Positions 32,325 through 38,038 of a stretch of 40,114 nucleotides of DNA are shown one piece after another. Every line of letters starts with the position of its first letter. Position 1 is the stretch's first letter. Origin of the DNA: Candidatus Thorarchaeota archaeon (lineage in GTDB: Archaea; Asgardarchaeota; Thorarchaeia; Thorarchaeales; Thorarchaeaceae); the NCBI GenBank assembly GCA_013388835.1, contig JACAEL010000002.1:1-40114 (forward strand), read 5' to 3'. Position numbers and translations under genes: made by a program. Under the pieces are notes generated by a model. It was not told the origin of the DNA. It worked only from the letters and a program-made list of their open reading frames with translations, and did not search any database.

Positions 32325-32801
32325 CTACCTGATTGGTCGAAGGCCATATCGAGAGATTCTCATCTTAAGGATGGCCGCGTGTCGCGACAGGTGGCGGGCA
32401 GAGTCGACAAGGACCGCAGCAGGGGTCTGTAGAAGCAGGTTCTTGGATTCTTCCATCGTGTCAGGCGACATCTGCTCCGCAAGCGGGCACTGTGAGAGGA
32501 ACACCTCGCCCGAGCTCATCTGGATGACCGGGAATGCTCTGCATCTGAGTGGGCGAACCTCGTAGATGGCGCATCCATCGTCTGTAAGGTACGGGCAGAC
32601 GCCATCGTCACCCCACCGAGTCATCCATGCCCCCTCAGACACTTGTTCGAAGTAGTCTGGGTAACCATGTGCACGGATAGCCTCTACCTCCTCCTCCATG
32701 GCCAGTGCACCGCCCAGCTTGCAGCACATCGCGCCGCATGCGATGCACACACCTCTGTTGTCTCCGGTCTTGGTCGATGAGATGGGCATGAGACGTGCCA
32801 T
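32325..32801 (-). CDS. YkgJ-family cysteine-cluster protein
   Basis: About 158 residues. CIACGAMCCKLGG near the N-terminus and VCPYLTDDGCAIYEVRPLRCRAFP in the middle are the CxxCxxxCC and C-x-C-x-RPxxCR signatures of the YkgJ/CxxCxxCC zinc- or Fe-S-binding family (function unknown). QCPLAE adds a further Cys. ATG 32801 is preceded by GGAAGG; a GTG at 32813 would add four residues. A TATA-like CTTATTTG lies just upstream at about 32825. Lies beside the sulfur genes, which may or may not be meaningful. Confidence 0.82.
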   Translation of the reverse strand: MARLMPISSTKTGDNRGVCIACGAMCCKLGGALAMEEEVEAIRAHGYPDYFEQVSEGAWMTRWGDDGVCPYLTDDGCAIYEVRPLRCRAFPVIQMSSGEVFLSQCPLAEQMSPDTMEESKNLLLQTPAAVLVDSARHLSRHAAILKMRISRYGLRPIR

Positions 32802-32851
32802 GGTTCCTTCCACGACCAGTCACAAATAAGAGTTGCAGTTCAGACGAAGAC

Positions 32852-32934: not shown

Positions 32935-34269
32935 CTAGCCCTGCTGCTTCTTGGGTCTCTTCGCCTCGTCCTCCGAGGATGCCAGCTCGCCCAGCGACTC
33001 CTTCATGATCCCCCTGAAGTCAAAGCCCATCATCTTTGATAGGAGTATCATTGGTAGTAGCACGTTGCCGAACACCTGGAACGCACCGGCGCCAGAGCCA
33101 CCATCCTCTCCGACAGCGCCACCACCGGCGCCTCCACCACCAAAGAGTGTGACATCGCCTATCTTGATGTGCTCGTATATCTGAGGAATCATTGACACAA
33201 AGTCCCTCGCGAAAGCCTGAGGCGAGTAGTCCTTTGCAGCCTCAAGGGTCTTCTTGATTCCCTCAGCCTGAGCCATCGTCACCTTTCTAATCCTGTCCGC
33301 CTCGGCGTTTGCAAGAATGGCGATTCTCTCAGCCTCGGCCTGGGCTTCCTGAAGGATTCTCTGGGCCTGGACTTCGACCTCCTGCTTGATCCTCCGCTGC
33401 TTCTCAGCCTCGGCGTTCAACTTCGCCACCTCGAGGTCCTTGGAAGCCTCTACTTCCGCCTTCTGCTTCTCGTAGCGCTTCTGCATCAGGTCCTTCTGGA
33501 GCTCGATCTCAAGCACGCTCTGCTCACGCTGCTTCTCCGCCTCCTGTATCGCCCTCAACTGCATCTGTTCCTGGACACCAACAAGCTGGTCACGCTCAAT
33601 CTCCTTCTCGCGAAGCGCACGGGAACGCTCGATGTCCCTCTGGCCAGTTGTCTGGTCCGCCTCAATCAGTGCCATCTGCGCAGTCCGGTGCATCTCCGCC
33701 TCACGCGGCTTGGACATGTCGCGAAGGAACGACTCGTTGACAACCGACACATCGACTAGCTCAACCGTCACGACCTTGAGACCCCACTCGCTGACTATGT
33801 CGATGAGCTCTTTCTTGATCGCCTCAATGATCTTCTGGCGCTCCTCCAGTATCTCCTCCACAGAGAGCTGAGCACAGGCTGTTCGTATCACCGACTCGAT
33901 GATGGCAGTGAGCCGCGATGGTATCTCGCTCCACTTGACGTTGTTGATGGTCGCGATAGCGTTCTCAGCCTGCCACTGCAACACAGCACTCAGCTTGATC
34001 TTCTGCTTTTCTCTCGATAGCACTGACTCTGCATGAATGTTGAGTTGCTGAACAGTCCTGTCAATTGCCAGTATCCTGTCGAAGAACGGCCTTCGGACGA
34101 CCATGCCGCCCTCGCCCTGCTTTATGGCCTTCCCCTTTCTCAGATGAACATAGAATATGTTCGGTTCGAATATCTTCACGTACTTGAAGAAGTAGAACAC
34201 CAGAAGGACAAGAACCAATACTCCTCCCAAGAATAGTGATACCACCAGATTGCCGAATACATCCTGCAT
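32935..34269 (-). CDS. Flotillin-like SPFH/band-7 protein
   Basis: 444 residues. One N-terminal membrane helix (about 8-30), then an SPFH domain (VHLRKGKAIKQGEGGMVVRRPFFDRI ... TINNVKWSEIPSRLTAIIESVIRT ... WGLKVVTVELVDVSV), then a ~170-residue charged coiled coil rich in Glu, Ala, Gln and Lys, and a Gly-rich C-terminus with a short hydrophobic patch. Flotillins oligomerise into membrane microdomain rings. The NfeD-like gene upstream on the same strand is its usual partner. A CTTTATAA box at 34489-34496 would give a ~190-nt leader, so floT may be transcribed on its own. Confidence 0.93.
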   Translation of the reverse strand: MQDVFGNLVVSLFLGGVLVLVLLVFYFFKYVKIFEPNIFYVHLRKGKAIKQGEGGMVVRRPFFDRILAIDRTVQQLNIHAESVLSREKQKIKLSAVLQWQAENAIATINNVKWSEIPSRLTAIIESVIRTACAQLSVEEILEERQKIIEAIKKELIDIVSEWGLKVVTVELVDVSVVNESFLRDMSKPREAEMHRTAQMALIEADQTTGQRDIERSRALREKEIERDQLVGVQEQMQLRAIQEAEKQREQSVLEIELQKDLMQKRYEKQKAEVEASKDLEVAKLNAEAEKQRRIKQEVEVQAQRILQEAQAEAERIAILANAEADRIRKVTMAQAEGIKKTLEAAKDYSPQAFARDFVSMIPQIYEHIKIGDVTLFGGGGAGGGAVGEDGGSGAGAFQVFGNVLLPMILLSKMMGFDFRGIMKESLGELASSEDEAKRPKKQQG

Positions 34270-34560: not shown

Positions 34561-35454
34561 CTAGTCAGACTCATTCTCTTGAGGTGAGGCCTTCTCTCCC
34601 TCTCTCTGCTTCTTCGATTGCTTCTGAAGCCAGCGAACGAGGTCCCGGTTCGGATCGACATAGACATACTTGTCATTCGCAGAGATGATGAATAGGACAG
34701 TCCCCTTCTGGAACACCGACCCCTTTCGGAATGGGCGTGCGTTGAATCTGCGAAGTCCCATCTCGGTCTCTGTCCTCACCTCTCCAAAGTCATCCTTCAC
34801 AGTCGACGCCGCCTCCACCTGCCTTCCCACCAGATGCCTCGGTTCCAGGTAGTAGCCCGACTCAACAAATGCCTTGCCCAACACTGTTCGGACCGTGTAG
34901 ACGACCAGAGCAACACCGACGACTTGCCCCAGCACCTTCAATGGAAATGGCATCGGCAGTCCCTCGTAGTAGAACACCAGTCCGAAGAAACCAAAGAAGA
35001 TCAGGCCGGTCCCTATCGTCACACCAAAGGGTGCCCCCTGCTCACTCTCAAAGAAGCCTGAATGCTCTGTCGAAGGCAGGTCATGACCAACATCAACTTC
35101 GCCATGCTCAAGATCATGCTCAATGTCTTGGTCGATATCATAGTCGACATCCTGCGGGACATCCAGGTCCATGCCATGGTCCACATCATGTTCAACGTCA
35201 TGTTCAATGTCCTGATCGATGTCTTGGTCTATGTCATGTCCAACATCCTGGTCTATGTCATGTTCAACGTCTTGGTCTATGTCATGTTCAACGTCCTGGT
35301 CTACATCATGGTCGACCTCGTGGTCCGCCATATCGGACAGCACCGAGAAGACCCTGCCTAGGGCGAAGAGACCGAATGTGTAGAACAGCCCAAGCAGGAA
35401 GATAGCGAGTGATACCTCTCTGAGCAACGCAGCCAGCTCTAGGAACTCTTGCAC
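34561..35454 (-). CDS. NfeD-like membrane protein with Asp/His-rich tandem repeat
   Basis: 297 residues. A membrane helix (about 14-35) is followed by ~80 residues (44-125) built from the 4-residue unit D-[IV]-[DE]-[QH]. Two further membrane segments lie at about 143-160 and 168-190, then an OB-fold-like C-terminus (LVGRQVEAASTVKDDFGEVRT ... VLFIISANDKYVYVDP) as in NfeD. NfeD-like proteins pair with flotillins in membrane microdomains. The repeat is not part of the family and, on the predicted topology, lies between membrane helices; its acid/His spacing suggests binding of divalent cations. GTG start. Likely not in one transcript with floT given the intervening promoter. Confidence 0.85.
   Translation of the reverse strand: MQEFLELAALLREVSLAIFLLGLFYTFGLFALGRVFSVLSDMADHEVDHDVDQDVEHDIDQDVEHDIDQDVGHDIDQDIDQDIEHDVEHDVDHGMDLDVPQDVDYDIDQDIEHDLEHGEVDVGHDLPSTEHSGFFESEQGAPFGVTIGTGLIFFGFFGLVFYYEGLPMPFPLKVLGQVVGVALVVYTVRTVLGKAFVESGYYLEPRHLVGRQVEAASTVKDDFGEVRTETEMGLRRFNARPFRKGSVFQKGTVLFIISANDKYVYVDPNRDLVRWLQKQSKKQREGEKASPQENESD
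35080..35325 (-). repeat. Tandem 24-nt/12-nt repeat inside the NfeD-like gene
   Basis: On the minus strand the unit GACGTTGAACATGACATAGA plus CCAA (24 nt, encoding DVEHDIDQ) recurs with small changes, giving about twenty 4-residue repeats. Slippage could change copy number. Confidence 0.85.
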
Positions 35455-35875: not shown

Positions 35876-38038
35876 TCAGAGTTGATCAGAACTGTAGTAT
35901 CTATCGTAGAGGCCCGCATCCTTGAGCGCCTTCTGACATTCCGCGTCGTTTCGAATCGTGCCAATTCTCAACATCCCTTCTATTACCGAGTGTTCAGCCT
36001 CGCTGCTGGATAGATACTCCCGAATCTCGGGAAGCCTGCACTGTACTGCCTCTTCTATCATCTGGTTGTTGGAGCGATCGGCCATACTGCCTACGAGTTG
36101 AACCATGAGCCATAGCTTGTTCGACTGTCGAATGGCGCTTGCAAGCTTTGGGACGGAGGACATCACTGCTGACCGGATGTCCACCTTCTCTCTCAGTTCC
36201 CGCCAGTCTTTGATAGCCCAGATGACCAGCCACGGCTCGTCCGAGTCTAGAATGGCGCTGGCAAGAACCCCAGCGACTTTGTCACAGCCGGTGGTCGTGT
36301 TCAAAGCCCGGACCCGCCTGAGTACAATCATGAGGTCGTATGCGGTGTCCACTTTAGCAAGGCCCGCTGCAAACTCCGCCGGTATGGACATGAGATAGTC
36401 ATACATTCCCTTGGAAAGGTCTTTTGCTAGGTGTCGCATCGACATGGCAAGGATGACAGCAGCCCGGTCCTCTTCTTGGTTGGTCAGGAGGTAGTGATGG
36501 ACCGCAATGATGGCTTGCTCTTTAGGCCCCACAGGATTACCGGCCTGAATCTGCAAGGGGGTCCCACTTCGCATGAGTTTCATACTCAGGAATTGCTCGA
36601 ACGACTTCTTCACATCTTTAAACTCATCGGGGTACACTCTTGGCAGCTCTTCGGCTATGCTGAGGTGTGGATGGAGCAGGTCATTCTCCGTGCCCACAAG
36701 ATCGCCCCTATCCCAGAGGATGTTGATGATTCCCGGTGACATGCGTTGACTCGCCTGGGGTTCGAGGACTTCGCATAGCAGAGGCCTATAGGCGGGAATC
36801 TCCATGCTGGAGTAGATGCTGACGAAAAGCAACACCCGTCTCACCATAACTCTCAACTGATCATAGTTTTCTGGCTTCATGGCGTCGAGTATTCCCCTTA
36901 TGACTGAATACTCGTAGTAGTTGCATAGCGACTTCTTCAGGTCGGCCTTCTTGACCTGCTCGACATCCCCAGCATGCTTGGTGCCCACGTCACTGAGAAG
37001 AAACTTGAGGAGGACAAGACTCTCCCTCGACTTGGACGTGTACTGACGCATCAGCTCCTCACGATCTTCAAGAGATTCGGAGTACGATTCCACGATCTGC
37101 TTAATGGCTTTCTCGAAATCATCTGATTCGAGCGTGAAGTACGAGAGTCCTGACTCCTCCTGTGCACTCTTGGCATATCCGTCGTCCGGTCTCAGTAGTC
37201 TCTCCCATTCCTTCTTGTCTTCTGCGACCGACGCTCTGGTGACTCTGGCGACGAGAAGGCATCTCACATTCTTCTCGAATTGACCTCGCAAGTCATTCAT
37301 GCACTTTCCAACCAGACCAGGAGTCAGGTGTACATTGTCTATGATGACAAGTGCCATGCTGTTTGAGAGACCTTGCTTGGCCATGCGGTCACTCACACCC
37401 CGGATACACTCGGTGGGATCTCCGAATCCGAGCCTTCCCGCGTCCCAGTACACTACGAACCGCCATCCCCGCTTGGTCAGCAGCTCGTACCCGAGGTGCA
37501 GGGTTAAGGTGGTCTTGCCGGCGCCGGACAACGCGAGCAACATGGTGACGCTGTTGTCTTGAATCGCCTTGAAGAGGTCATCCAGTTTCTCTCTGCGACA
37601 GACATGCTCCTCGAAGTCCACCCACTTTGGGGGAATCCTAAACCATATCGGCTCAGTCTTCTCTCGCATCTGGAGTTCTCTTTGGAGGATGGGGGCGATC
37701 TTCTCTATCCACCTCTCAGCCTCTAGTCTCGCGCGCCGATAGTTGATTAGATGAAACAATGGATAGAAGAACAATAAGGACGCGACCGCTCTGACGTCAG
37801 CAAGATAGTCAATCAGGTGGCGGGGATTGTCCCATCCCTGTGCAATGAAAAGGGAATAGAAGAGCAGAACGCCACCGAAGGACAGTGCGAGGACTGGACC
37901 TATGGCGAGTGCTTCGAACTGGGTCAGGGTTCGGACCTCCTCCACTATTGGCGGCCCGGGTCTCCCTCTTACCCGCGACCTGATCCGTATTCCTGCCTCA
38001 CGCAATCCGTCAAGCATGTGCGAAGACATCCCTCTCAT
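35876..38038 (-). CDS. Membrane-anchored STAND-type P-loop NTPase
   Basis: 720 residues. Two membrane helices near the N-terminus (about 42-66 and 84-100) are followed by a helical linker and the segment VCRREKLDDLFKAI that precedes STAND/NACHT modules. Walker A is LALSGAGKTTLTL (172-177 GAGKTT), Walker B ALVIIDNVH (229-237), and VRCLLVARVTR resembles sensor 1. Beyond ~330 come a winged-helix-like region and long helical repeats to the C-terminus. STAND ATPases act as signal-dependent switches in defence and regulation; no effector domain (nuclease, TIR, protease) is evident, so the membrane helices might be the effector. ATG 38038; ATG 38029 or 38017 possible. Confidence 0.83.
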   Translation of the reverse strand: MRGMSSHMLDGLREAGIRIRSRVRGRPGPPIVEEVRTLTQFEALAIGPVLALSFGGVLLFYSLFIAQGWDNPRHLIDYLADVRAVASLLFFYPLFHLINYRRARLEAERWIEKIAPILQRELQMREKTEPIWFRIPPKWVDFEEHVCRREKLDDLFKAIQDNSVTMLLALSGAGKTTLTLHLGYELLTKRGWRFVVYWDAGRLGFGDPTECIRGVSDRMAKQGLSNSMALVIIDNVHLTPGLVGKCMNDLRGQFEKNVRCLLVARVTRASVAEDKKEWERLLRPDDGYAKSAQEESGLSYFTLESDDFEKAIKQIVESYSESLEDREELMRQYTSKSRESLVLLKFLLSDVGTKHAGDVEQVKKADLKKSLCNYYEYSVIRGILDAMKPENYDQLRVMVRRVLLFVSIYSSMEIPAYRPLLCEVLEPQASQRMSPGIINILWDRGDLVGTENDLLHPHLSIAEELPRVYPDEFKDVKKSFEQFLSMKLMRSGTPLQIQAGNPVGPKEQAIIAVHHYLLTNQEEDRAAVILAMSMRHLAKDLSKGMYDYLMSIPAEFAAGLAKVDTAYDLMIVLRRVRALNTTTGCDKVAGVLASAILDSDEPWLVIWAIKDWRELREKVDIRSAVMSSVPKLASAIRQSNKLWLMVQLVGSMADRSNNQMIEEAVQCRLPEIREYLSSSEAEHSVIEGMLRIGTIRNDAECQKALKDAGLYDRYYSSDQL

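Follow-up and report, generated by a model that had tools for sequence, protein, structure and literature searches.

In the genome of a Candidatus Thorarchaeota archaeon, an NfeD-like protein encoded beside a flotillin gene carries, between its first two predicted transmembrane (TM) helices, a long loop of acidic residues in alternating positions. This loop is an unusual, selection-maintained addition to the known NfeD-flotillin partnership: selection preserves the alternation, whereas loop length changes by whole units, which suggests a function. Little is known about what the NfeD-type partners of flotillins do, and few studies seem to have dealt with flotillins in the Asgard archaea, which are related to the ancestor of eukaryotes; a literature search returned no title on the topic. 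Literature searches on the repeat strings, on alternating aspartate peptides and on aspartate-rich NfeD proteins found nothing on this loop. Selected alternation combined with length drift in whole units provides a testable handle on the role of NfeD-type partners, and an example of a natural alternating acidic sequence kept, seemingly, for physical reasons.

The gene occupies positions 34561..35454 on the minus strand of the window, that is, of the whole stretch of 40,114 nucleotides analyzed. It encodes an NfeD/YqiJ-like protein of 297 residues with three TM helices and a GTG start, also used by the orthologues L031, L032 and L041, while the remaining full loci start with ATG. An AlphaFold2 model of the full protein was built with 21 sequences. 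The N-terminal TM helix 1 (residues 1-43, positions 35326..35454, minus strand) is modelled as a helix over residues 2-43, with a hydropathy peak at 14-32. It is followed by the alternating acidic repeat (residues 44-127, positions 35074..35325, minus strand), supported by Tandem Repeats Finder, shuffling and composition; by TM helices 2 and 3 (residues 143-199, positions 34858..35028, minus strand; modelled helices 143-161 and 170-199, with hydropathy peaks); and by an OB-fold domain (residues 205-271, positions 34642..34842, minus strand) recognized through VIA-align matches to NfeD domains. The model contains a confident beta domain at residues 205-270, and leaves residues 44-140 almost free of secondary structure, at a pLDDT below 50. 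The repeat is predicted to be the TM1-TM2 loop; since three helices are predicted, loop and OB domain would face the same side, a placement that depends on the three-helix prediction. This side is presumably the cytosol, by transfer from bacterial NfeD, as the OB domain of Staphylococcus aureus NfeD is described as cytosolic (PMC11222466).

The assignment to NfeD comes from structure. In VIA-align comparisons of the OB domain, the top four places are taken by NfeD domains (3cp0, Z 11.7; 3wwv, 9.8; 2k5h, 9.2; YuaF 2k14, 8.7), with 3cp0 superposing at 1.4 A over 63 residues, and two other NfeD matches rank lower (2exd, Z 7.7; QmcA-YbbJ 8z5g, Z 6.6). PcsB (4cgk) ranks above 2exd at Z 8.1, with a match that extends no further than residue 200 and so does not reach the OB domain; non-NfeD OB proteins reach Z 5.9 at most. 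The top three Foldseek matches of the domain are all NfeD (E 3.4e-4 to 5.9e-4), and sequence identity to known NfeD OB domains is 11-25% over the matched part. No match to the Pfam families PF01957, PF07290 or PF21001 was found in the window protein or in the other nine of ten members scanned, and PF07290 matched in 0 of 59 genomes; among six proteins scanned, two relatives gave matches below the cut-off (L104 to PF01957, E 0.014; L099 to PF21001, E 0.014). Because its OB fold matches NfeD domains best, the window protein is, as far as the model goes, NfeD-type by structure, despite the lack of a Pfam NfeD or YqiJ match. The first-pass annotation, which had called the protein an otherwise normal NfeD, needs correction to this extent. 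Elsewhere in the host genome there are two ordinary PF01957 genes, and its Band_7 genes number three in total.

The flotillin neighbour recognized at first reading is confirmed: a flotillin-type SPFH protein is encoded at 32935..34269 on the minus strand (Band_7, 2.4e-21; Flot, 7.4e-7). A single scan of named genomes, using peptide patterns outside the repeat, retrieved 21 related loci, labelled Candidatus Thorarchaeota (19), Lokiarchaeota (one) and archaeon only (one). A homologous flotillin lies downstream of the NfeD-like gene in 20 of them, the other locus (L051) reaching a contig end; about 1.5 to 3 kb separate the two genes in L044, L045 and L049, and other genes stand between them in L044 and L045. 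In L045 (WJMJ01000042.1), a 730-aa protein that reads as response-regulator/PAS/histidine-kinase-like is encoded between both genes. In L038 (CP070658.1) the flotillin match is partial (residues 7-64 only), and in G022, which seems to be the same genome, a second fragment lies at a distance of about 98 kb; this is a broken gene or an assembly rearrangement. The flotillin neighbour recurs in 18 of 20 loci from other Asgard families. Among 47 genomes of the window's family, 21 hold both genes, 2 the NfeD-like gene only, 1 the flotillin only and 23 neither, a co-occurrence (Fisher 4e-10) computed with genomes counted as independent and to which incomplete assemblies may add absences. By coordinates, G217 and G223 are at contig ends, and the match in G218 stops where the contig of L051 ends. 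As six genera contain genomes with both genes and genomes with neither, both genes seem to have been acquired or lost together on several occasions. Segments of the window flotillin carry net charges of -2 to +1, and no strongly basic one stands out as an obvious docking site for the loop.

Two further genes flank the pair. Upstream of the NfeD-like gene, a 720-aa STAND-like NTPase (35876-38038, minus strand; PF25199, E 3.4e-7, just under the cut-off) was rejected as an operon member because none of the 21 named loci gave a match to it. A short way downstream of the flotillin is a gene for a CxxCxxCC putative zinc- or iron-chelating domain protein (32325-32813, minus strand; PF03692, E 5e-10), for which tblastn found no match in the same 21 loci.

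Residues 44-127 comprise 37 acidic, no basic, 11 His and 7 Gln residues. The estimate of about twenty four-residue units made at first reading holds: 20 tetrads follow one another in register, the first at residue 46, and 13 of them fit the canonical [DE]-[VI]-[DE]-[HQ]; when the same residues were shuffled 5000 times, at most 4 (mean 0.6) were obtained. In the DNA, Tandem Repeats Finder detects the array at periods of 12 nt (69% matches), 24 nt (77%) and 48 nt (81%); the residue unit is therefore 12 nt long, and the 24-nt DNA unit given in the first-pass annotation, while present as a period, is a pair of such units. Near-identity of DNA units is confined to three consecutive 24-nt units (residues 54-77): the 12 canonical 12-nt units counted from residue 50 have a mean identity of 75%, with 4 of 66 pairs identical. 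GC3 is 0.48 in the repeat, against 0.68 for the rest. No further repeat of this kind was found in the host genome outside the gene. Elsewhere, a weak repeat-type match (G163:C127:2760-3017, E 2.3e-4) falls within a 1722-aa open frame, and alternating acidic repeats may therefore also occur in another, unrelated protein. Two matches to the repeat itself were discarded: the T4 gp5 spike domain PF22178 (E 0.026 in the window, best 0.0034, 7 of 10 members), below the cut-off in the window and attributable to composition, and a PDB sequence match to negative elongation factor E (E 0.014), a low-complexity chance match.

Comparison of repeat number across relatives, as first proposed, finds the repeat in all 21 named loci and its length variable, with 61-133 residues between the two flanking cores (120 in L045; in L051 the contig breaks off after the loop). 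Writing the unit as D-phi-[DE]-x, these relatives mostly have His at x, with 12-34 His and 0-3 Gln per loop; the 7 Gln set the window protein apart, the relatives mostly having His at these places. A paralogue (L025, G006:C131), with the same core, a short loop free of the repeat and no flotillin match on its contig, is a natural control for loop function. Of 227 Asgard genomes searched with a profile, 91 had matches, some weak ones of which may rest on the repeat alone. In 20 of 20 stretches taken from matching genomes of other families, acid-alternating loops are visible by eye, the least regular being L101. The loop types include D-H-D-F, S-[VI]-D-H-D-[VI], D-K-D-[IL]-[ST]-[IV] and D-V-D-A-D-I; x is H, K, A or V in the D-phi-D-x loops of these lineages, and some loops are devoid of His (L089, L090, L093, L100, L103-L105).

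Loop statistics were drawn from 42 proteins (the window protein, the 21 named loci and the 20 from other families). A density rule for loops of at least 30 residues retained 37, with L047, L088, L101, L102 and L106 under 30. Adjacent acidic pairs are absent from 30 of these 37 loops and number at most one in 35, where shuffling predicts 5-26. Since acidic pairs are scarcer than in shuffles while the x residue varies, the conserved feature is, judging from these sequences, the placing of hydrophobic residues between successive, alternating acidic ones, and not His. The genome searches covered the window's own phylum, and the bacterial comparison consisted of three YqiJ-type proteins that were read; plasmids gave no match to the window protein or to either of two Asgard relatives used as queries.

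How the loop changes was followed in the four closest pairs (core identity of at least 92%; three of the pairs share members). Loop lengths differ by 4, 12, 16 and 12 residues, and seven of seven loop alignment gaps (4; 20, 4 and 4; 20 and 4; 12 residues) are multiples of four, the events behind them being fewer than seven; gaps of other lengths occur in some less close pairs. Copy-number change, one part of the first interpretation, is thereby borne out. Recent expansion, the other part, is not supported: because units differ at many synonymous sites and the repeat is common to the family, the repeat is old, with ongoing turnover. Loop dN/dS is 0.15, 0.16, 0.09 and 0.06 in the four pairs, for a core value of 0.08-0.10; as repeat alignment tends to favour matches, the loop ratios are lower bounds for change. 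In four more distant pairs, synonymous sites of the loop are saturated, so that no ratio is given. Neutral simulation at the core synonymous rate predicts the loss of about 15.5 of 29 and 19.5 of 27 His in two of these four pairs, where 1 and 1 were seen; for acidic residues, 5 and 0 positions were lost, against 21 and 30 expected. Loop exchanges are mainly D/E and I/V. By these measures, the loop is under purifying selection in the closest pairs.

Our preferred reading, held tentatively and as somewhat short of probable, is that of a selected polyanionic strip on the flotillin-NfeD platform, for which an ion or pH response is suggested by analogy. The protein would be an NfeD-like flotillin partner of the YqiJ/YuaF kind, whose TM1-TM2 loop would form a strip that is under selection, varies in length and has acidic residues in strict alternation with others, on the OB-domain side, presumably in the cytosol, beside the flotillin assembly. 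Operons of bacteria and archaea are described that combine YqiJ/YuaF, flotillin and sometimes an AAA+ ATPase (PMC11237479), and S. aureus NfeD is reported to bind the flotillin FloA, stabilize its oligomers and help hold unfolded proteins (PMC11222466). SPFH complexes are described with 22 and 26 subunits (PMC12624060). If many copies are crowded in a flotillin ring, they would create a dense polyanionic layer at the membrane. Loops with a charge of about -37 would be extended and mutually repelling at low cation activity; once neutralized by cations or protons, they could pair as acid-faced beta strands, and the state of the loop would tune platform packing and contact with client proteins. 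A response of this kind is suggested because synthetic alternating charged/hydrophobic peptides are described as unfolded until their charge is screened, acidic ones folding on protonation (PMC12940918). A more specific version, which we consider distinctly unlikely, makes the loop an ion- and pH-responsive switch from repelling brush to acid-faced beta sheet across neighbouring subunits. Through it, the level of cations or protons in the cytosol would open, stiffen or load a flotillin dome, at a threshold that each lineage would adjust through unit number and through the residue (H, K, A or V) in fourth place.

Several observations weigh against the strip. AlphaFold2 predicts no strands in the loop, and a plain disordered linker would fit the models equally well. 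The x residue differs from lineage to lineage (H, Q, K, A or V), which by sequence leaves no single chemistry conserved, the flotillin offers the loop no obvious docking site, and the twofold range of loop length indicates that an exact reach is not needed. Moreover, three bacterial YqiJ-type proteins have no repeat, so the basic NfeD role can do without it.

The best of the alternatives is a rather unlikely one in our estimate: an unspecific but selected acidic disordered bristle, a spacer or solubilizer in which charge and length alone matter. It agrees with the predicted disorder, the wide length range and the variable x; however, it accounts neither for a strict alternation kept beyond composition nor for purifying selection at hydrophobic and His positions. 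The retention of His, far above neutral expectation in the closest pairs, speaks for the metal-binding strip proposed at first reading, where Asp/Glu and His of D-phi-[DE]-H units would chelate transition metals or Mg2+/Ca2+ and buffer or sense metal at the platform. The many His in Thorarchaeota-type relatives point the same way. COG2268, which we take to include YqiK along with flotillin-like proteins, offers a further hint: knock-out of a Shewanella COG2268 protein is reported to lower free iron (PMC1468410). However, His is absent from the loops of several other Asgard lineages, so that His-based metal binding is not the general function; the window has its 7 Gln where relatives mostly have His; and RTX motifs are lacking, while EF-hand-like strings occur in 4 of 42 proteins only. 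We therefore regard this explanation as unlikely. The DxDxDG loops typical of EF-hands and thrombospondin type 3 repeats were also considered on their own and rejected, being absent from the window protein and confined to those 4 proteins, with models that give the loop no structure.

Very improbable is a neutral or selfish minisatellite, produced by slippage of 12-nt units in a tolerant loop: the whole-unit length differences, the tandem array visible in the DNA and the distinct codon use of the repeat would all be expected, but the low loop dN/dS (0.06-0.16) largely refutes it, and a repeat present at every named locus and preserved in type across families also speaks against it. The beta-roll suggested in the first-pass annotation, calcium-dependent and of RTX kind, has regular Asp spacing alone in its favour and is hardly credible, given that the RTX motif (GGxGxDx[hydrophobic] repeats) occurs in 0 of 42 proteins, that AlphaFold2 gives no strands or other loop structure either in the full protein or in a regular relative's loop alone, and that the loop is predicted to be cytosolic.

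Asp-rich repeats are shared with RTX beta-roll proteins, but the window protein is a membrane protein, predicted to expose its repeat to the cytosol, and lacks the glycine-rich nonapeptide motif. The same strict charged/hydrophobic alternation is found in MAX-type designed beta-hairpin peptides, which resemble above all the D-V-D-A loops of family f2; these peptides are designed, short and provided with a turn, and the likeness is a physical analogy, not homology. The OB domain is shared with YbbJ in the QmcA-YbbJ complex (8z5g) and with the NfeD domains 3cp0, 3wwv, 2k5h, 2k14 and 2exd (Z 6.6 to 11.7), to which the window protein adds its acidic loop. The TM1-TM2 loop of E. coli YqiJ and two plasmid-borne relatives is free of the repeat, and the window protein differs from them in having no Pfam match; with the YqiJ/YuaF NfeD2 proteins (PF07290, PF21001) it nevertheless shares the three TM helices described for them (PMC11237479), the C-terminal OB fold and the flotillin neighbour.
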